Shown here piece by piece: positions 1,166-26,045 of a stretch of DNA of 64,000 nucleotides (positions within the stretch are counted from its first letter, which is position 1; each line of letters opens with the position of its first letter). The notes beneath the pieces were generated by a model. That model did no database searches, was not told the DNA's origin, and saw only the letters and a program-made list of their open reading frames with translations. Both the position numbers and the translations under genes were made by a program. This DNA is from Halanaerobium saccharolyticum subsp. saccharolyticum DSM 6643 (GTDB lineage Bacteria; Bacillota; Halanaerobiia; Halanaerobiales; Halanaerobiaceae), in assembly GCF_000350165.1 (NCBI RefSeq), contig NZ_CAUI01000010.1, positions 1 to 64,000 on the forward strand, written 5' to 3'.

Positions 1166-1522
1166 ATGAAAAGACAATTAGGAACGATGGTTGGTGGCGC
1201 AATTGCCGGTGTTTTTGTATTTAATATTTGGGGTATTTTAGCTGGAACTCAAGCTTTAGGAGATGCTGGTGGATGGCTAGGCGGTCTCTTAATAGTTGGT
1301 TTTATTTGGACTGTTAACCATTATGTAGGAGTTATTTATAATCCAGAAGGTTCAGTTTCTATTGATATGGCAACTGCAATTGCTGTTGCTGGAACAATGC
1401 AGGGTGTATTTGGTGGAGCACCACTTAGTGCAGCTTTACCTACATTATTATGGGTTGCTGTTGGTGCTGTATTAGGCGGTACTTTTGCTGCTGTAGTTCA
1501 AAACGCTATTGCTGAAGAATAA
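1166..1522 (+). CDS. Small integral membrane protein, putative glycerol transporter subunit (Lin0368-like)
   Basis: A 118-residue, Gly/Ala-rich hydrophobic protein with about three to four membrane segments (roughly residues 8-28, 36-56, 68-85, 90-112) and a conserved SIDMATA stretch near residue 65. It resembles the small proteins annotated in other Firmicutes as putative glycerol transporter subunits (Lin0368 family); that family name is recalled, not searched. It is a paralogue of the next gene: both share a GG-L-GF segment, IDMA, a PTL motif and a Gly-rich last helix. It is first in the operon with glpK, and no aquaglyceroporin gene glpF is present in the window. The start is ATG with GAGGTGA upstream. 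Expression probably depends on the leader terminator at 957-1022. Confidence 0.65.
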   Translation: MKRQLGTMVGGAIAGVFVFNIWGILAGTQALGDAGGWLGGLLIVGFIWTVNHYVGVIYNPEGSVSIDMATAIAVAGTMQGVFGGAPLSAALPTLLWVAVGAVLGGTFAAVVQNAIAEE

Positions 1523-1541
1523 TGAGAGGGGGAAAAAATAA

Positions 1542-1883
1542 ATGGGTATCTTAAATATAGTTAGTACTGTTTTCGGAGCGATGCTTTTTCCATTCTTAAT
1601 TTTAATGGTATGGGGAAAAGGTGTTGAAGAAAGAGGAATTTTTGGTGGACTAGTAATGGGTGGTTTTATTGTTGGAACAAGTTGGCTTGCAAATCACGGT
1701 GGCTCTCCTTTAATTATTCAGGGACAAGGAGCACCATGGATTGATATGGCTTGGGCAGCTTCTATTGGTATTATGACACATGGTATAATTACTGGTGGAG
1801 ATTTCAAAAAGTCGGTACCTACATTGATTTTTGCTATTATTGGAGGTATTATTGGAGGCTTTGTTTTATTTGCAGCAGCTTAA
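1542..1883 (+). CDS. Small integral membrane protein, putative glycerol transporter second subunit
   Basis: A 113-residue hydrophobic protein with four likely membrane segments (about residues 5-24, 33-51, 67-84, 89-112). It aligns over its length with the preceding 118-residue protein; shared signatures include WIDMAWA, GIMTHGIITGG and VPTL followed by a Gly-rich helix. The gap to its partner is 19 bases and it lies 72 bases before glpK, so the three genes form one unit. The pair probably assembles as a hetero-oligomer that moves glycerol, which GlpK then traps as glycerol 3-phosphate. Transport of glycerol is inferred from context and from recalled family naming. Confidence 0.65.
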   Translation: MGILNIVSTVFGAMLFPFLILMVWGKGVEERGIFGGLVMGGFIVGTSWLANHGGSPLIIQGQGAPWIDMAWAASIGIMTHGIITGGDFKKSVPTLIFAIIGGIIGGFVLFAAA

Positions 1884-1931: not shown

Positions 1932-3452
<1,521 letters not shown>

Positions 3453-3625: not shown

Positions 3626-5101
3626 TTGTCTAAAGACAAATATGATGTAATTATAGTTGGAGCAGGTGTTTCTGGCTGTGCAGTAGCCTGGAAACTTGCC
3701 AGATATAATTTAGATATATTAATATTAGAAAAAGCTCCAGATGTAGCAACTGGAACTACAAAAGCAAATACTGCGATAATTCATGCAGGATACAATGCAG
3801 ATCCTGAAAAACAAAAAGGAAGATTGAATAAAAAAGGTAATGTACAGATAAAAGATATTGTAGAAGATTTAAGTGTACCGTTTGAACAAATAGGGTCTTT
3901 GGTTGTGGGAATGGAAGATGACGATTTAAGTGTTATCGATGAATTATTAGAAAAAGGAAAAGAAAATGGGGTAGAAGGTTTAGAAATAGTAGATAAAGAA
4001 TGGCTGCAGAAAGAAGAGCCTCACTTAAGTGATAAAGCCGTAAGAGCTTTATGGGCTCCTACAGCTGGGATTATTACTCCCTGGGAATTTGCTTTAGCTT
4101 TGGCAGAAAATGCAGTAGCAAATGGTGCTGAAATAATGCTTGAAACTGAAGTTCAGGATGTTTATACAGAAGATGGAAAAGTTACAGGAGTAAAAACTAA
4201 TCAGGGTGATTTTGCAGCAGATTATGTAATTAATGCTGCTGGTCTTTATGCTGATGATGTAGCAAGAATGGTAGGAATTGAGAAAATAGATATTCATCCA
4301 AGAAAAGGTGAATATTATATTTATGATCATGCCAAGGATTTTGAAATTAATCATGTTTTATTTCCAATTCCAACTAAAATTTCTAAAGGTATTGTCTGCA
4401 CAAAAACTGTAGAAGATAATCTTTTAATTGGACCGACTTCTGATTTTGTTGACAGTAAAGAGGATCTTGCAACAACAAGGGAAGGTTTAGATCATGTTTT
4501 TAATGGAGCAAAAAAAATGTTTCCAGATCTTACATTAAAGGATAGTATCAGAGTTTTTGCTGGTTTAAGAGCAGCAGATACAACTGAAGATTTTGTGATT
4601 GAAGCTGCAGAAGATGTGGCTGGTTTTGTTAATGTTGCAGGTATTCAGTCTCCTGGACTTTCTTCAGCACCTGCAGTTGCAGATTTAGTAGCTGAAATAC
4701 TTGAAAATGAAGGCTTAACTTTAGAAGAAAAAGAAGATATTATAGAGACTAGAGAAGAACCCGCTAGATTTTATGAAATTTCTAATGAAGAAAGAGCTGC
4801 ATATGCAGAAGAAGATAAAGAATATGGACAGATCATCTGCCGTTGTGAAACAGTTTCATTAAAAGAAATAAAAGATGCAATTAATGGACCTATACCAGCA
4901 AGAACTGTTAATGCAGTAAAAAGAAGAACAAGAGCTGGAGCAGGTAGATGTCAGGGTGGATTCTGTGGACCTCGGGTAACTCAAATAATTGCTGATGAAC
5001 TTGGTATTGACACAACTGAAGTGAGACTAGAAAAAGATAATTCTAAGATAGTTGAGCACAAAATAAAAGGATTACTTGGAAGTCAGGGTGATGCAGAATG
5101 A
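3626..5101 (+). CDS. FAD-dependent glycerol-3-phosphate dehydrogenase-like protein with C-terminal [2Fe-2S] BFD-like domain
   Basis: A 491-residue protein. An N-terminal FAD-binding DAO domain (VIIVGAGVSGCAVAWKLAR, residues 8-26) spans about 370 residues. A BFD-like domain follows with cysteines at 405, 407, 442 and 447 in the patterns CxC and CxxxxC, which should bind a [2Fe-2S] cluster. The family oxidises glycerol 3-phosphate to dihydroxyacetone phosphate. The start is TTG 3626 with AGGGGG upstream. It overlaps the next gene by four bases and forms a three-gene set with it and the DUF1667 gene, an arrangement I recall beside glpK in Thermotoga. The electron acceptor is unknown; the partner NAD/FAD subunit suggests a soluble complex rather than GlpABC with quinone. 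Confidence 0.85.
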   Translation: MSKDKYDVIIVGAGVSGCAVAWKLARYNLDILILEKAPDVATGTTKANTAIIHAGYNADPEKQKGRLNKKGNVQIKDIVEDLSVPFEQIGSLVVGMEDDDLSVIDELLEKGKENGVEGLEIVDKEWLQKEEPHLSDKAVRALWAPTAGIITPWEFALALAENAVANGAEIMLETEVQDVYTEDGKVTGVKTNQGDFAADYVINAAGLYADDVARMVGIEKIDIHPRKGEYYIYDHAKDFEINHVLFPIPTKISKGIVCTKTVEDNLLIGPTSDFVDSKEDLATTREGLDHVFNGAKKMFPDLTLKDSIRVFAGLRAADTTEDFVIEAAEDVAGFVNVAGIQSPGLSSAPAVADLVAEILENEGLTLEEKEDIIETREEPARFYEISNEERAAYAEEDKEYGQIICRCETVSLKEIKDAINGPIPARTVNAVKRRTRAGAGRCQGGFCGPRVTQIIADELGIDTTEVRLEKDNSKIVEHKIKGLLGSQGDAE

Positions 5102-6378
5102 TTAAAGTTAAAAAAGATGTAGTTGTAATTGGTGGAGGACCTGCTGGTTTAGCTGCTGCAGCTAAAGTTTATGATAATGGTATTAAAGATGTAATGATTC
5201 TTGAGCGTGACTTTGAGCTTGGAGGTATACTGCCTCAGTGTATTCATAATGGTTTTGGTCTACATCACTTTGGCGAAGAATTGACAGGACCAGAATATTC
5301 ACAAAGATTTGAAAATGACGTTGAAGAACGTGATATTGAGGTAAAGCTTAATACAATGGTGCTTGATGTTACTGCCGATAAAAAGGTTTTTGCAATGAAT
5401 AAAGATCAAGGTGCAATGGAAATTCAGGCAAAAGCTGTAATTCTTGCAATGGGCTGTCGTGAAAGAACAGCTGGAGCACTTGGAATTCCAGGTACAAGGC
5501 CTGCTGGTGTTTTAACTGCTGGAACAGCACAAAGATTTACCAATATAGAAGGTTATGTTCCTGGAAAAAAAGTAGTAATTTTAGGCTCCGGTGATATTGG
5601 TTTAATTATGGCTAGACGTATGAGATTAGAAGGTGCAGATGTAAAAGCAGTTTGCGAAATTTTGCCCTATACAGGAGGATTAACAAGGAATGTAGTTCAG
5701 TGTTTAGAAGATTATGATATTCCATTAATGTTAAATCATACAGTAACAAAAATTATAGGTAATGATAGATTAGAAGCTGTAGAGATAACAGAAGTTGATG
5801 AAAACATGAAGCCAATACCAGAAACTGCTGAGATAGTAGAAGCAGATACTTTACTTCTTTCTGTTGGTTTAATACCAGAAAATGAACTATCTAAAAAAGC
5901 AGAAGTTGTTTTAGATGATAGAACTGGTGGTCCAATAGTTAATGAAGGTCGAGAAACAAACATTGATGGTATCTTTGCCTGTGGTAATGTACTTCATGTA
6001 CATGATCTTGTTGATTGGGTTACAGAAGAATCACAAATTGCAGGGGACTGGGCAGCAAAATATATAAGTGGTGATTACAAAAGAGCTGAAGAAAAAATAG
6101 ATATTAAAGCGGGAGAAAATGTAGCTTATGTAATTCCACAGAGTATTGAATTGGAAGCCGAAGATAGAAAAAGAATACCGCTTTATATGAGAGTTAGCAC
6201 TCCTTTAACAGCTGTAGATATTGAACTATATGCTGATGGCGAAAAATTATACTCATTCTCAGAGCCTTTTGCAAAACCTGGTGAAATGATTAGTGTACCT
6301 CTGGCTCAAAAAACACTTAATGATTTAGATCATGTTAGTGAAATTAGGGTAGATATTATCGAGAAGGAGGGAGAATAA
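5098..6378 (+). CDS. NAD(P)/FAD-dependent oxidoreductase subunit partnered with the GlpA-like protein
   Basis: A 426-residue pyridine-nucleotide oxidoreductase with two dinucleotide-binding motifs: VVIGGGPAGLAAAAKVYDNG (about residues 9-28) for FAD and VVILGSGDIGLIMARRM (about 159-175) for NAD(P). GIFACGNVLHVHDLVDWV near residue 290 is the second FAD-binding motif. It belongs to the group of HcnB/GlpB-like subunits that pair with DAO-domain dehydrogenases. The start codon overlaps the preceding stop (ATGA), so the two are translationally coupled. It probably passes electrons from the GlpA-like subunit to a pyridine nucleotide or other acceptor; the direction is not evident from sequence. Confidence 0.82.
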   Translation: MIKVKKDVVVIGGGPAGLAAAAKVYDNGIKDVMILERDFELGGILPQCIHNGFGLHHFGEELTGPEYSQRFENDVEERDIEVKLNTMVLDVTADKKVFAMNKDQGAMEIQAKAVILAMGCRERTAGALGIPGTRPAGVLTAGTAQRFTNIEGYVPGKKVVILGSGDIGLIMARRMRLEGADVKAVCEILPYTGGLTRNVVQCLEDYDIPLMLNHTVTKIIGNDRLEAVEITEVDENMKPIPETAEIVEADTLLLSVGLIPENELSKKAEVVLDDRTGGPIVNEGRETNIDGIFACGNVLHVHDLVDWVTEESQIAGDWAAKYISGDYKRAEEKIDIKAGENVAYVIPQSIELEAEDRKRIPLYMRVSTPLTAVDIELYADGEKLYSFSEPFAKPGEMISVPLAQKTLNDLDHVSEIRVDIIEKEGE

Positions 6379-6756
6379 ATGCTTGAAAAACAAACCATTA
6401 CCTGTGTTGCTTGTCCAAAAGGTTGTGAAGTTACAGTTGAGCATGATGGTGATGAAATTATAAATATAATGGGAAATGCCTGCCCTCAAGGTGCAGACTA
6501 TGCTAAAGAAGAAATCATAGCTAAAACTAGAATTCTTCCTACAACAGTTCGAGTTAAAAATGGAGCTTTACCTTTATGTCCAGTTAAAACAACAAAACAA
6601 ATTCCTTTAGAATTAATGGATCAAGCTATGAATAAAATTGGAGAAAAAGAAATTGAAGCACCACTTGAAATGGGTCAAATTGTAATAAAGAACTTATTAG
6701 ATACTGGTGCAGATGTTGTAGCTACCAGAGATTTACCAAAAAAAATTAGTGTTTAA
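6379..6756 (+). CDS. DUF1667 cysteine-rich protein of the GlpA-like complex
   Basis: A 125-residue protein with an N-terminal cysteine cluster (CVACPKGC, Cys9, Cys12 and Cys16, then Cys36 in NACPQG) suited to metal or Fe-S binding. LPLCPVKTTKQIP follows in the second half. This matches DUF1667 proteins, which occur next to GlpA-like and NAD/FAD subunits. The start ATG directly follows the previous stop codon, with GGAGGGAG upstream, so it belongs to the same operon. It is probably the small Fe-S or structural subunit of the complex; its exact role is not established as far as I know. Confidence 0.8.
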   Translation: MLEKQTITCVACPKGCEVTVEHDGDEIINIMGNACPQGADYAKEEIIAKTRILPTTVRVKNGALPLCPVKTTKQIPLELMDQAMNKIGEKEIEAPLEMGQIVIKNLLDTGADVVATRDLPKKISV

Positions 6757-6785: not shown

Positions 6786-7307
6786 ATGAAATTAAAAAAT
6801 AAAAAAATAGCGATGTTGATTGGTCCAGGATATGAAGATTTCGAATTCTGGGTAGTTTACATGAGAATGATAGAAGAAGGCGCAGAAGTTGATGTAATTG
6901 GTATGGAAAAAGGTGTTGAGTATGTTAGTAAACATGGTTGTTTAACTAGAGAAGCTGATTATCTTGCTTCTGAAGTTCTTGATAAAAATTATGATGGAGT
7001 TTTAGTGCCAGGAGGCTGGACTCCAGATAAAATTAGAAGAGATAAAGATATAGTAGAATTAGTCAGAAAAAATTATGAAGATGGAAAGATTATTGGTTTA
7101 ATCTGTCATGCTGGTCTTGTTGGGATTTCTGCTGGAATTATTAATGGAAAAGCAACTGGTTCTTTAGGAATTAAAGATGATATCATTAATGCTGGAGGAA
7201 CATGGGTAGATGAAGCAGCATTTAGAGATGGTAATATTGTTTGGGGTAGAGTTGTTAAAGATATTCCAGATTATTGTAGAGAATTAGTTAAAGCACTAGC
7301 AGAGTAA
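6786..7307 (+). CDS. DJ-1/PfpI family protein (class I glutamine amidotransferase-like)
   Basis: A 173-residue single-domain protein. The acid motif GPGYEDFEFW lies at residues 13-22, and the nucleophile elbow LICHAGLVGI near residue 107 keeps the Cys-His pair of DJ-1/PfpI proteins. Family members act as glyoxalases, deglycases, chaperones or proteases, so the activity here is open. It follows the DUF1667 gene by 29 bases with its own AAGGAGG site and is the last gene before a hairpin. One attractive idea is removal of methylglyoxal made from excess dihydroxyacetone phosphate; that is inference from context only. Confidence 0.85.
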   Translation: MKLKNKKIAMLIGPGYEDFEFWVVYMRMIEEGAEVDVIGMEKGVEYVSKHGCLTREADYLASEVLDKNYDGVLVPGGWTPDKIRRDKDIVELVRKNYEDGKIIGLICHAGLVGISAGIINGKATGSLGIKDDIINAGGTWVDEAAFRDGNIVWGRVVKDIPDYCRELVKALAE

Positions 7308-7390: not shown

Positions 7391-9232
7391 ATGGATATAT
7401 TTAACGAATTCAATTTTATTAGTTTTAGCATAGGGGTAGTTATTACTAGTTTTATTATTTATTTTTTTTTGGTTTTAAAAAAAGATAATAAAAATAGTAT
7501 AGCTAAAAAAAATGAAGATGGAATTACTAAAAATAATGAATCTAAAAAAAAGACAGCTAACAAACTATTAAATTTATCACAAGAAGTGTCTTTTAAATCT
7601 CAAGATTTGATTTGGTTAATAAATGATAATAATAAAAAAGCTGAAAATTTGGTAGAAAGATTTGAAAATATTGCTGAATCAGTTGAAAATAATGCAGCTG
7701 GAGCAGAAGAAATTTCTGCAACAATTGAAGAATTATCATCTTCTTCAAATGTTATTAAAACTGAAATGGAAAAATTAGAAAAAATTTCTCAACAACTTAT
7801 GTCAGATTCGGCAAAAAACCAAAACTGGATAGAAGAATCTAACAATACTTTGCTTGAAATAGCAACAAATGTAAAAAAATCTGGTGATTCAATTGAAAGT
7901 GTAGAAGATGCTTTAGAAAATACCAATAAATTACTTGGAGGAATCATAGATATTACTGATCAAATTAATTTACTTGCTTTAAATGCTTCAATTGAGGCAG
8001 CAAGAGCTGGAGATGCTGGAAGAGGATTTAATGTTGTTGCTGGAGAAATAAAAAGTCTTTCTGAAGAAACTGAGCAATTAACTTCAGAAATTAGAGAAGC
8101 AATTAATAATATAAATCTAGAAATAAAAAATACTGATCAAATAATTGAAAATGGTCTAGATAGTATTGAGGGAGTTGAAGAGTTAGCAAGTAAATCTATT
8201 GATTCATTTAATTTAATGAATAATAATTTGCATAATGTTATTAATTCTATATCTAAGTTGTCTGATAGTACAGAGAGTCAAGCTTCAGCTACTGAGCAAA
8301 CAACCCAAGCAGTTGAATCTATGACTCAAGAATTCATAAATATTTCAGAGAATGTTTCTGAAGTTGATAAAAATATAAAAAATCAAAAAAACAATTCTGA
8401 AACTCTTATTAATTATTCTAATAATCTTAATACAATAGCCTATGAACTTCACAAAATTTCAGTAGAAAATAAAAGTGATGAAATGTTAATTTTTGGAGTT
8501 AATCCTTTTACAAAACCAGAAAAAATAGAAGAATTATATATCCCAATAATTAATAAATTATGTCAAAAAATTAATAAGAATGCTAAAACAGTTATAGTTT
8601 CAGATTACGAAGAATTAACATATTACATAAAAAATAATTTAATAGATATTGGATGGTTTTCTCCTATGGCATATGTTAAAGCAAAAAAAGAAACAAATGT
8701 TATTCCAATGATAACTCCTTTGATTAATGGCAAAGATAGTTATAGAGGATATATTTTCACTAGAAAAAATAGTAAATATAACAAATTAAAAGATTTAAGA
8801 AATAGTATTTTTGCATTTGTAGATCCATTATCAACATCTGGATATGTATATCCAAAACAAATGTTAAAAGAAGTTGGGATTAATGTGAATACAGATTTAA
8901 AAGAAACTTTATTTTTAGGGAATCATGATAATGTAATAAAGGCTGTATTAGATAATAAAGTTGAAGTTGGAGCAACATATAATGAAGCTTGGGATAGAGC
9001 AGCTCAAACATTAAATTTAGAGAGTCTAAATATATTAGAAAAAACAGCTCCTATTCCAAAAGATGTGATTGCTGCTAGATCTGATTTAGATCAAAACATT
9101 TTAGAAGAGACAAAAAATATTTTCTTAAAAGCTGATAGAGAAATTAGTGAAGTCTTAAATCAAACCAATATAACAGGATTTACTGAGAGTGAAGATAAGA
9201 AATTTGATATTATACGACGATATAATAATTAA
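7391..9232 (+). CDS. Membrane-anchored chemoreceptor (MCP) fused to a C-terminal PhnD-like phosph(on)ate-binding domain
   Basis: A 613-residue protein. One membrane helix (about residues 11-29) is followed by Lys-Lys, so everything after it should be cytoplasmic. Residues about 50-355 are a coiled-coil MCP signalling domain with the CheA/CheW-binding tip [16 protein letters not shown] near 190. Residues about 365-613 resemble the periplasmic binding protein PhnD, including the oxyanion-loop motif STSGYVYP. No periplasmic sensor domain and no C-terminal CheR pentapeptide are visible. This order puts a phosphate or phosphonate-ester binding fold inside the cell. It lies between glp and dha genes, so sensing of glycerol 3-phosphate or dihydroxyacetone phosphate is a reasonable guess, not a demonstrated one. 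Confidence 0.85.
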
Positions 9233-9376: not shown

Positions 9377-10369
9377 ATGAAGAAAAAATTAATTAATAAT
9401 CCGGAAAAAGTAGTGGAAGAAATGGTAGAGGGTATTGTGATGGCTGCTCCTGATAAGCTTGAAAAGTTAGATGATTATAATATAGTTATAAGAAAAGGTA
9501 GTCCTAATGAAAAAGTTGCTTTAGTCAGTGGTGGAGGTAGTGGTCATGAGCCTACACATGCTGGCTTTGTTGGTGAGGGTATGTTAGATGGAGCAATTTC
9601 TGGTGATGTATTTACTTCTCCAACTCCTGATGCAGTATTTGAAGCTATTAAAGCAGTTGATGGTGGAAAAGGTGTATTATTAGTTGTAAAAAACTATACT
9701 GGAGATGTTATGAATTTTGAAATGGCTGCAGAAATGGCAGAAGCTGAAGGAATTGAAGTAGATCATGTAGTTGTAAACGATGATGTAGCTGTAGAAGATA
9801 GTTTATATACAACTGGGCGACGCGGTGTTGCTGGAACTATATTTGTTCATAAAATTGCAGGAGCAAAAGCTGAAGCGGGTGCTGAACTTCCAGAGGTTAA
9901 GAAGGTAGCAGAAAAAGTTATAGCAAATGTTAGAACTAAAGGTATGGCTTTATACCCATGTCGAGTACCAGCAGCTGAAGAATCAACATTTACTCTAGAA
10001 GAAGACGAAATTGAATTAGGTATTGGTATTCATGGTGAGCCTGGAACAGAAAGAACTGAATTAATGAAAGCAGATGAAATTGTAGATGAATTATTAGGTA
10101 GTGTAATAGATGATATTCCTTACGAAAAAGGTGATGATGTAGCTCTAATGATTAATGGTATGGGTGGTACTCCTCTAATGGAGCTATTCCTGGCCAATAG
10201 AAGAGCAAATCAAATACTTGAAGAAAAGGGTATTAATATCTACAAAACTTTTGTTGGAGAATATATGACATCTTTAGAAATGGCTGGTGTTTCGATAACA
10301 TTATTAAAATTAGATGACGAAATGAAAGAATTACTTGATGCTCCAACAGAAATAAATATTATGAAGTAA
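9377..10369 (+). CDS. dhaK: PTS-dependent dihydroxyacetone kinase, substrate-binding subunit DhaK
   Basis: A 330-residue DhaK protein of normal length. GGGSGHEPTHAGFVG (near residue 53) is the substrate-pocket motif. GIGIHGEPGTER (near residue 217) holds the histidine that binds dihydroxyacetone covalently as a hemiaminal. It is the first gene of dhaKLM, which phosphorylates dihydroxyacetone to dihydroxyacetone phosphate using PEP through the PTS. The start is ATG with AAAGGAGGG upstream. Bases 9233-9376 are AT-rich; I could not assign a convincing promoter there. Confidence 0.96.
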   Translation: MKKKLINNPEKVVEEMVEGIVMAAPDKLEKLDDYNIVIRKGSPNEKVALVSGGGSGHEPTHAGFVGEGMLDGAISGDVFTSPTPDAVFEAIKAVDGGKGVLLVVKNYTGDVMNFEMAAEMAEAEGIEVDHVVVNDDVAVEDSLYTTGRRGVAGTIFVHKIAGAKAEAGAELPEVKKVAEKVIANVRTKGMALYPCRVPAAEESTFTLEEDEIELGIGIHGEPGTERTELMKADEIVDELLGSVIDDIPYEKGDDVALMINGMGGTPLMELFLANRRANQILEEKGINIYKTFVGEYMTSLEMAGVSITLLKLDDEMKELLDAPTEINIMK

Positions 10370-10388
10370 TTTATGGAGGGGACTATTT

Positions 10389-11006
10389 GTGACCGAAAAA
10401 AGCAAAAAAATTATCAATGAAATAGCTGATGTAATTATTGAAAATAAAAAATATCTTACTAAATTAGATTCCGCCATCGGTGATGGTGATCATGGTATCA
10501 ATATGACTAAAGGTTTTAAAAAAGTAAAAGAAAAAATGGAAGCAAAAGATTATGAAAATAATAAAGAACTTATAAAAACAGTTGCAATGACATTAATTTC
10601 TACAGTTGGAGGAGCTTCAGGCCCACTTTATGGTACTGCTTTTTTGAATATAAGTAAAATTATACCTGATGCTGACTTTGATTTGGAATCGATTATTGAA
10701 ATTGGAGAAACAGCTGTTGCAGGTATACAAAAAAGAGGGAAAGCAGAAGCGGGAGAAAAAACAATGTTAGATACAATTATTCCGGCTGTAGATGCTTTAA
10801 AAGAAAGCAAAAAAAATGGAGACAGTGTAGAAGAAGCATTACAACAATGTAAGATTAAAGCAGAAGAAGGAATGAAAGCTACAATTGATATGCAGGCTAC
10901 TAAAGGACGTGCAAGTTATCTAGGTAAGAGAAGTATTGGTCATCAGGATCCAGGTGCGACTTCTAGTTATTTGATGATAAAAACAGTAGTAGAAGAATTA
11001 TATTAA
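10389..11006 (+). CDS. dhaL: PTS-dependent dihydroxyacetone kinase, ADP-binding subunit DhaL
   Basis: A 205-residue DhaL subunit. The nucleotide and Mg-binding loop KLDSAIGDGDHGINMTKGF (about residues 25-43) carries the conserved Asp residues, and GGASGPLYGTAF (near 75) and DPGATSSY (near 190) complete the active site. In the PTS-type enzyme its tightly bound ADP is rephosphorylated by DhaM. The start is GTG 10389 with GGAGGGG upstream. It lies 19 bases after dhaK and 16 before dhaM. Confidence 0.95.
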   Translation: MTEKSKKIINEIADVIIENKKYLTKLDSAIGDGDHGINMTKGFKKVKEKMEAKDYENNKELIKTVAMTLISTVGGASGPLYGTAFLNISKIIPDADFDLESIIEIGETAVAGIQKRGKAEAGEKTMLDTIIPAVDALKESKKNGDSVEEALQQCKIKAEEGMKATIDMQATKGRASYLGKRSIGHQDPGATSSYLMIKTVVEELY

Positions 11007-11022
11007 AAATTGGAGGAAGCAG

Positions 11023-11415
11023 ATGGTAAACATAATATTAGTTTCTCATGTTAAAGAAATTGCTGAAGGAGCTAAAAAATTAGCAGAACAAATGAAACAG
11101 GGTGAAGTTGAGATTATTGCTGTCGGCGGGACTGCTGATGGTGATATTGGTACAGATCCTGATGCAATAGAATCAGCTGTAAATGAAATCAATAAAGAAG
11201 ATGGCATAATTATTTTAGCTGATCTAGGTAGCGCTATTATGAGCGTAAATATGGTTTTAGATTGGTTAGATGATGAAATTAGAGAGAAAATTGTTTTGGC
11301 AGATGCGCCATTTGTTGAGGGCGCTGTTGTTGCTGCTGTTGAAGCAGGAATGGGCAACAAAATTGATGAAATACTAGAATCAATAGAGTCAGTTGATATG
11401 ATTAAGAAAAATTAA
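11023..11415 (+). CDS. dhaM: PTS-dependent dihydroxyacetone kinase, phosphotransferase subunit DhaM (EIIA-man type)
   Basis: A 130-residue EIIA-mannose-like protein. The phosphorylatable histidine is in LVSHVKEIAEG (His9). IILADLGSAIMSVNM (near residue 64) is typical of DhaM. It takes phosphate from HPr and passes it to ADP in DhaL. It is the short form, without the HPr and EI-like domains found in enterobacterial DhaM. It is the last gene of dhaKLM, and a repeated hairpin terminator follows at 11460. It ties dihydroxyacetone use to PTS flux. Confidence 0.94.
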   Translation: MVNIILVSHVKEIAEGAKKLAEQMKQGEVEIIAVGGTADGDIGTDPDAIESAVNEINKEDGIIILADLGSAIMSVNMVLDWLDDEIREKIVLADAPFVEGAVVAAVEAGMGNKIDEILESIESVDMIKKN

Positions 11416-11563: not shown

Positions 11564-11625
11564 TTGACAAACAAAAACAAATAATATATAATCATAAACG
11601 AAGACAAACGAAAACAAACAAACAT
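11564..11625 (+). promoter_or_regulatory. Promoter of the fructose operon with 10-base direct-repeat operator
   Basis: TTGACA (11564-11569), a 17-base spacer and TATAAT (11587-11592) give a consensus promoter. Three 10-base direct repeats follow without gaps: AAACGAAGAC (11596), AAACGAAAAC (11606) and AAACAAACAT (11616). A similar unit, AAACAAAAAC, overlaps the -35 box (11569-11578). Repeats spaced by one helical turn around the start site fit binding by the DeoR-type regulator encoded just downstream, which in this family is usually released by fructose 1-phosphate. Confidence 0.75.
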
Positions 11626-16674: not shown

Positions 16675-16923
16675 AAATAAATAGAAAATCCTAAGAAAGG
16701 AAAAGTAAATTTAAAATTAGCCTCAGCAAACTGGAGTAGCTGTGAGTCCAGAGCTAAGATTAAATTGAAGCGCATCCTGGAGGAGCTTTACTAAAATTAT
16801 GATTTGTCATATTAGGTAAAGACATTTAAGCTGTGTTAAAGCGTTGAGTGGACTTTTGTCAAAAAAGAGTGGTACCACGGGTTATATCTCGTCTCTAATT
16901 TTATTTAGAGGGCGAGTTTTTTG
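16675..16923 (+). promoter_or_regulatory. T-box riboswitch, probable alanine specifier (GCG)
   Basis: The T-box sequence GAGTGGTACCACGGG is at 16867-16881. It is followed by a terminator stem (CTCGTCTCTAA with TTAGAGGGCGAG, 16889-16916) and a T run to 16923. In stem I, GAA precedes a candidate specifier GCG (16770-16772), then CATCCTGGAG. The serS T-box in this window has the same frame, with GAA before TCC. GCG codes for alanine, which fits ald and alr downstream. Uncharged tRNA-Ala would favour read-through into the transporter, aminotransferase and LarA-like genes. The element is certain; the specifier is read by alignment and less certain. Confidence 0.9.
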
Positions 16924-24430: not shown

Positions 24431-24688
24431 AACAATTTTATAGCCATTTATTTAAAGGTGTTGAAGGACATTAGTAAATTTTTAAAACTGATTTAGAGAG
24501 CTGATGGTTGCTGAAAATCAGCCAGTTTAAAAGTTGAATCCAGTCTGGAGCTGTGATGCAGAAAAATAATTATTTATTGACTATGCTGATCCGGGTGAGT
24601 CCGTTAAAACTATATAAGAGGCAGCAATAGCTGTTATTAGGGTGGCACCACGAGATATCTCGTCCCTTTCTGGGGAGGAGTTTTTTTG
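24431..24688 (+). promoter_or_regulatory. T-box riboswitch, serine specifier (TCC), upstream of serS
   Basis: The T-box core AGGGTGGCACCACGAG is at 24639-24654. A terminator follows (CTCGTCCC with GGGGAGGAG, then seven T, 24659-24687). In stem I the sequence GAA-TCC-AGTCTGGAG gives specifier TCC (24539-24541), a serine codon, in agreement with the downstream seryl-tRNA synthetase gene. AGAGAGCTGATGG and ATCAGCCAG form part of stem I. Uncharged tRNA-Ser should stabilise the antiterminator and raise serS expression. Confidence 0.95.

Positions 24689-24725: not shown

Positions 24726-26045
<1,320 letters not shown>

Follow-up and report, generated by a model that had tools for sequence, protein, structure and literature searches.

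Metabolism-dependent ('energy') taxis is usually ascribed to the sensing of redox state or proton-motive force, and the internal state of the cell is reported through cytoplasmic or membrane-tethered MCP receptors such as Aer, TlpD, and FrzCD. Aer uses PAS-FAD, TlpD carries a zinc-binding C-terminal domain, and FrzCD has no known metabolite site; to our knowledge, none of these receptors contains a periplasmic-binding-protein fold. Phosphorylated C3 compounds, including glycerol 3-phosphate (G3P) and dihydroxyacetone phosphate (DHAP), are bound by chemoreceptors of the PacP / sCache_PC3 type, which the paper describing PacP (2025) calls the first chemoreceptors for phosphorylated compounds (PMC12395807). 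These receptors, the only ones reported for such compounds, belong to Pseudomonadota and sense outside the cell through a periplasmic sCache domain, which is unrelated to the PhnD domain, predicted to lie inside, of the receptor described here. SBP-type domains are known in general as sensors of cytosolic signalling proteins (PMC9602780).

Within the PhnD family, GpxB, a PhnT-family substrate-binding protein, recognizes glycerol-1- and glycerol-3-phosphate with a Kd of ~1-2 uM (PMC12718374), and the PDB entries 9lf9/9lfb are probably this protein. Since GpxB binds G3P at ~1 uM, the PF12974 fold can hold this metabolite. GpxB shares with the domain studied here this fold and the Tyr, SxS, and His residues that contact the phosphate head, but it is a secreted transporter component whose tail residues are Arg223/Thr247, where the fusions have Glu/Asp (PMC12718374); it is also distant from the fusion-family profile (E 2.3e-18). 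In E. coli PhnD, E177 and D205 bind the amine of 2-aminoethylphosphonate (PMC5700983; PMC12718374), and in PtxB a capping Tyr contacts phosphite (PMC5700983). E. coli PhnD, PtxB, and HtxB belong to the same Pfam family as the fusion domain and have its side-chain oxygen-binding residues, with E177/D205 of E. coli PhnD kept in the fusions; these proteins are periplasmic and linked to ABC transporters, whereas the fusion domain lies C-terminal to an MCP region and, by prediction, inside.

The window, a 64,000-nucleotide stretch of Halanaerobium saccharolyticum subsp. saccharolyticum DSM 6643, encodes such a fusion (Table 1). We put at roughly two in three the probability that it is a chemoreceptor reading cytoplasmic G3P or DHAP, a ligand that we infer from site residues and gene context. 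According to the ORF listing and translation, the frame is intact, starts with ATG, and yields a product of 613 aa. The order of membrane helix, MCP part, and binding-protein fold, first proposed from the letters of the DNA, is confirmed by a Pfam match to PF00015 (MCPsignal) at residues 152-313 (106.6 bits, cut-off 34.6) and to PF12974 (Phosphonate-bd) at residues 368-604 (208 bits, E 1.7e-61), both following the N-terminal helix. The hairpin is complete: Glu202 marks the tip within a 17-residue stretch, coiled-coil arms span ~56 to 355, and the tip sequence, ten residues followed further on by GRGF, has a match in 59 of the 60 family members analysed. Putative methylation-like sites occupy both arms (102-118 and 298-307, with motif matches at 102, 109, and 298). 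The receptor has no Pfam match to sCache, and a periplasmic domain is absent. It passes the cut-off of TIGR01098, the NCBIfam model for ABC-transporter binding proteins (149 vs 112 bits), so automatic annotation likely mislabels the family as such; unlike a PhnD transporter component, the receptor is fused to an MCP and lacks a signal peptide, and no transporter neighbours were noted. AlphaFold models, with alignment rows from three close sequences, reached pLDDT values of 38 for the full protein and 42 for the PhnD domain alone and were unusable.

Table 1. Features of the receptor gene and its surroundings; positions are those of the window.
Feature	Position	Strand	Basis
DUF6905 pair (PF21846), at the place taken by glpF in other loci	1166..1883 (1166-1522, 1542-1883)	+	Pfam
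glpK, glycerol kinase (makes G3P)	1956..3452	+	sequence; conserved neighbour
G3P dehydrogenase-type module	3626..6756	+	Pfam (3626-5101, 6379-6756); sequence (5098-6378)
DAO + Fer2_BFD FAD oxidoreductase	3626-5101	+	Pfam
Second FAD oxidoreductase	5098-6378	+	sequence
DUF1667	6379-6756	+	Pfam
DJ-1/PfpI family protein, 83 nt upstream of receptor	6786..7307	+	Pfam
MCP-PhnD fusion chemoreceptor, 613 aa	7391..9232	+	ORF, translation, Pfam, family comparison
Single N-terminal transmembrane helix, residues ~10-28, predicted N-out/C-in	7418..7474	+	hydropathy; charge -2 before, +3 after
MCP signalling hairpin, residues ~56-355	7556..8455	+	PF00015; tip + motif; conservation
PhnD-type (PF12974) binding domain, residues 368-604, predicted cytoplasmic	8492..9202	+	Pfam; PDB homologues; column mapping to E. 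coli PhnD
dhaK, dhaL, dhaM: PEP-dependent dihydroxyacetone kinase (makes DHAP), 144 nt downstream of receptor	9377..11415	+	Pfam

Hydropathy and comparison across 60 homologues were used to determine the side of the membrane. The N-terminal helix is the only hydrophobic segment of the window protein, a second one having been looked for, and the charges around it indicate an N-out/C-in orientation by the positive-inside rule. Of the 60 fusions, 24 lack any membrane segment or signal, 27 have two helices, and nine, including the window protein, have one, while hydropathy reveals no hydrophobic segment beyond residue 100 in any of them (0/60). In the two-helix members, the N-terminal helices are joined by loops of 0-17 residues, which leave no room for an outside domain. 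Because the MCP hairpin works in the cytoplasm and no membrane crossing follows it, a cytoplasmic PhnD domain, the placement proposed in the sequence-only reading, is well supported by sequence comparison. The folded hairpin would bring its C-terminal end to the membrane-proximal base, the usual entry point of HAMP, as the symmetry of the hairpin suggests (tip 202, arm ends ~60 and ~355). An exported domain that senses the outside through an unconventional topology would agree with the extracytoplasmic nature of free PhnD proteins and with the single membrane helix of the window protein, but it is scarcely credible beside the members without membrane segment or signal and the lack of a helix between the cytoplasmic MCP part and the PhnD domain; an external location was rejected on topology.

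The site columns of the 60 fusions were mapped on E. coli PhnD (L077). Equivalents of the oxygen-binding Y47, Y93, S127, S129, and H157 (E. coli PhnD numbering) are present in all 60, corresponding to Y406, Y451, S481, S483, and H512 of the window protein, whose tail residues are E532, K557, and D558. An 11-residue motif of the receptor aligns with the phosphonate-binding DPNSTSGFLVP of E. coli PhnD; the STSGYVYP motif noted earlier is thus present, although 'oxyanion motif' is a loose wording for the SxS motif that the PhnD family conserves for binding phosphate/phosphonate. In the tail pocket, the E177 equivalent is Glu in 58/60 fusions and the D205 equivalent is Asp in 60/60, with Lys just before it in 58/60, while free SBPs vary at these positions and have the cap Tyr in 12/30. 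The position of the phosphite cap Tyr (Te_PtxB Y208) is Asp in every fusion. Together, the invariant head residues and the E/D tail pair suggest a domain suited to ligands that pair a phosphate or phosphonate head with a polar tail, rather than to phosphite, in agreement with the phosphorylated metabolite that had been predicted as the ligand class. Since the tail residues resemble those of E. coli PhnD and not of GpxB, the mode of G3P binding would differ from the known one.

These same features bear on the notion that the domain has kept the ancestral PhnD/PtxB ligand and senses inorganic phosphate, phosphite, or phosphonate inside the cell. Its closest solved homologues in the PDB are PtxB, ArrX, and PhnD, its head site is intact, and the residues equivalent to E177/D205 agree with those of the pocket that holds 2-aminoethylphosphonate in E. 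coli PhnD (PMC5700983; PMC12718374). Nevertheless, we regard this as distinctly unlikely, as the phosphite Tyr cap is replaced throughout, we noticed none of the phn, ptx, or pst genes in the neighbour lists, and a glycerol context recurs. Against a G3P/DHAP ligand, it must be weighed that cytoplasmic phosphate and other sugar phosphates are plentiful. Conservation is higher in the binding domain than in the coil arms (mean top-residue frequency ~0.6 vs ~0.4), the reverse of our expectation for a fast-evolving chemoreceptor sensor, and this pattern fits one unchanging ligand. Additionally, Trp75, in the basal part of the N-terminal arm, is invariant in 58 aligned members, and the residue just before the linker is Gln or His (Gln in 89%, H354 in the window protein), making W75 and H/Q354 candidate coupling points.

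The receptor lies co-directionally between a glp part upstream, from glpK to the DJ-1/PfpI gene, and the dha genes downstream, as the sequence-only reading had described, and DHAP is the end product of both pathway branches. No terminator-like sites were found in either gap flanking the receptor. Halanaerobium congolense DSM 11287, the nearest named record (85% identity over the whole protein), and two further relatives carry this fusion in the same neighbourhood, which rules out an assembly chimera.

A survey of related genomes for the fusion and its neighbours, as had been suggested, covered the 60 members. Using BLAST/phmmer with a small reference set to assign neighbours, we counted glp, dha, or triose-phosphate genes within ten genes of the fusion in 39/60 loci from 13/23 taxonomic families. 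In controls, such core genes accompany 0/18 free PhnD-type binding proteins and 0/8 other MCP loci in the window's genome, where only isolated weak paralogue matches appear; the comparison of 39/60 with 0/18 gives a Fisher p of 6e-7, which ignores relatedness and is indicative only. Gene orders include glpK-glpO-FADox-DUF1667-(HPr-sigma54 regulator)-MCP-dhaKL(M), glpP-glpF-glpK-glpA-glpB-glpC-MCP-pyk-gap-pgk-tpi-eno, gap-pgk-tpi-eno-MCP-glpABC-pyk, glpC-pyk-gap-pgk-tpi-eno-MCP, and glpP-MCP-glpFKABC, as well as MCP-glpP. GlpP in these loci (PF04309) is a G3P-responsive antiterminator. The recurrence of the glycerol context in varied orders is consistent with G3P and DHAP as candidates, for which the window's own neighbours had first argued.

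Since the gene orders differ between subclades, one inherited operon is not favoured. This tells against the view that the PhnD domain is now a protein-protein or structural module whose glycerol context reflects operon hitch-hiking. That view could draw on the 21/60 loci, including two whole subclades and some loci at contig ends, that show no glycerol genes nearby, but the invariance of the site residues and the stronger conservation of the domain relative to the coil arms make it very improbable. A structural or pseudo-domain was rejected on conservation.

The neighbourhoods also allow for the same cytoplasmic sensor with PEP, 3-phosphoglycerate, or glyceraldehyde 3-phosphate as its ligand, reading glycolytic/PTS flux rather than the entry of glycerol. 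Several loci lie beside gap-pgk-tpi-eno and pyk, two of them (L086, L087) without a detected glp gene, and PEP is consumed by DhaM/PTS-type genes. However, glycerol-pathway genes are commoner partners than glycolytic ones, GlpP adjoining the receptor points to G3P, and a carboxylated tail would be electrostatically unfavourable against the E/D pocket pair, so that this alternative appears unlikely.

The range of the family was explored within one phylum, where a PF12974 search over 398 genomes returned ~20 long reading frames, all in the MCP-PhnD order except L076, an ORF artefact without the MCP part. A profile built from 24 PhnD domains of fusions scores the fusions at 320-403 bits and the best free binding proteins among the matches listed at no more than 182. 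The fusion is present in 21/398 genomes of the phylum (~5%), in 14/26 of one class and 25/200 of another, nearly always as one copy. In a maximum-likelihood tree, a branch with 100/100 support separates all fusions from 31 free proteins, which is consistent with one fusion event. CheA and flagellin are encoded in the window's genome, and in 37/38 and 36/38 host genomes, respectively. A scan of viral contigs found no relatives, and in a plasmid search no record reached 80% coverage of the query, the matches being confined to ordinary MCPs. No description of an MCP-PhnD fusion was found in the literature searched, most subscription journals lying outside it. We consider it fairly likely that these receptors form an apparently undescribed, single-origin family of Bacillota-type bacteria, in which a relocated cytoplasmic binding-protein domain provides a direct, transport-independent gauge of G3P/DHAP for navigation.

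Because glycerol enters by facilitated diffusion, a phosphorylated product within the cell signals that the substrate has come in and also that it can be catabolized. In the proposed mechanism, glycerol or dihydroxyacetone would enter and be phosphorylated, and G3P and/or DHAP would then bind the Venus-flytrap PhnD sensor of the membrane-tethered receptor, held in the cytoplasm at the C-terminal end, or base, of the hairpin. Closure of the flytrap would shift the base of the four-helix bundle, probably via the region of the invariant Trp75 and His/Gln354, and this shift would change CheA activity, allowing the cell to follow gradients of glycerol-type substrates by the rate of their conversion. 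Ligand identity, signal coupling, and the sign of the response are all inferred here. G3P is slightly favoured over DHAP, owing to the GlpP neighbours and GpxB, while the glp and dha branches meet at DHAP, and the data fit both. If the proposal holds, cells would be guided by the phosphorylated intermediate that comes first in glycerol catabolism, and a receptor binding a named intracellular metabolite would form a direct molecular link from a catabolic pathway to CheA, so that navigation by metabolism could be tested with a single purified domain. The soluble members, which lack a membrane part and are ~570 aa long, are good targets for structural and binding work.

Several further observations concern the surroundings of these genes. 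In the 26 glpK-bearing receptor loci, the slot before glpK holds glpF in 16 and the DUF6905/PF21846 pair in 8, never both; the pair is seen in the window and at L052, L055, L070, L071, L073, L078, L079, and L083, and these hydrophobic proteins may serve as another channel or transporter for glycerol. Directly upstream of soluble MCP-PhnD genes, an HPr domain is fused to a sigma-54 activator and HTH_50 (L070:11328-13007, minus strand; equivalents in L065, L069, L071, L073, L074, and L078-L083); this protein probably links regulation of the glp-dha locus to the PTS. In L086, L087, L060, L064, and L088, the receptor gene comes after the eno of a gap-pgk-tpi-eno cluster, a setting in which other glycolytic intermediates could be the signal. 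In a Halanaerobium relative (L051:3864-12260, minus strand), the fusion lies outside the glp-dha locus, beside fliW, cheA, cheW, cheC, and cheD. Elsewhere in the window, T-box leaders at 16684-16899 and 24452-24670 precede a gene for an amino-acid-type binding protein (16977) and the ORF at 24777, and a perfect 12/12 sigma-70 consensus at 11564-11592 lies upstream of a DeoR-type regulator of fructose-type PTS genes.
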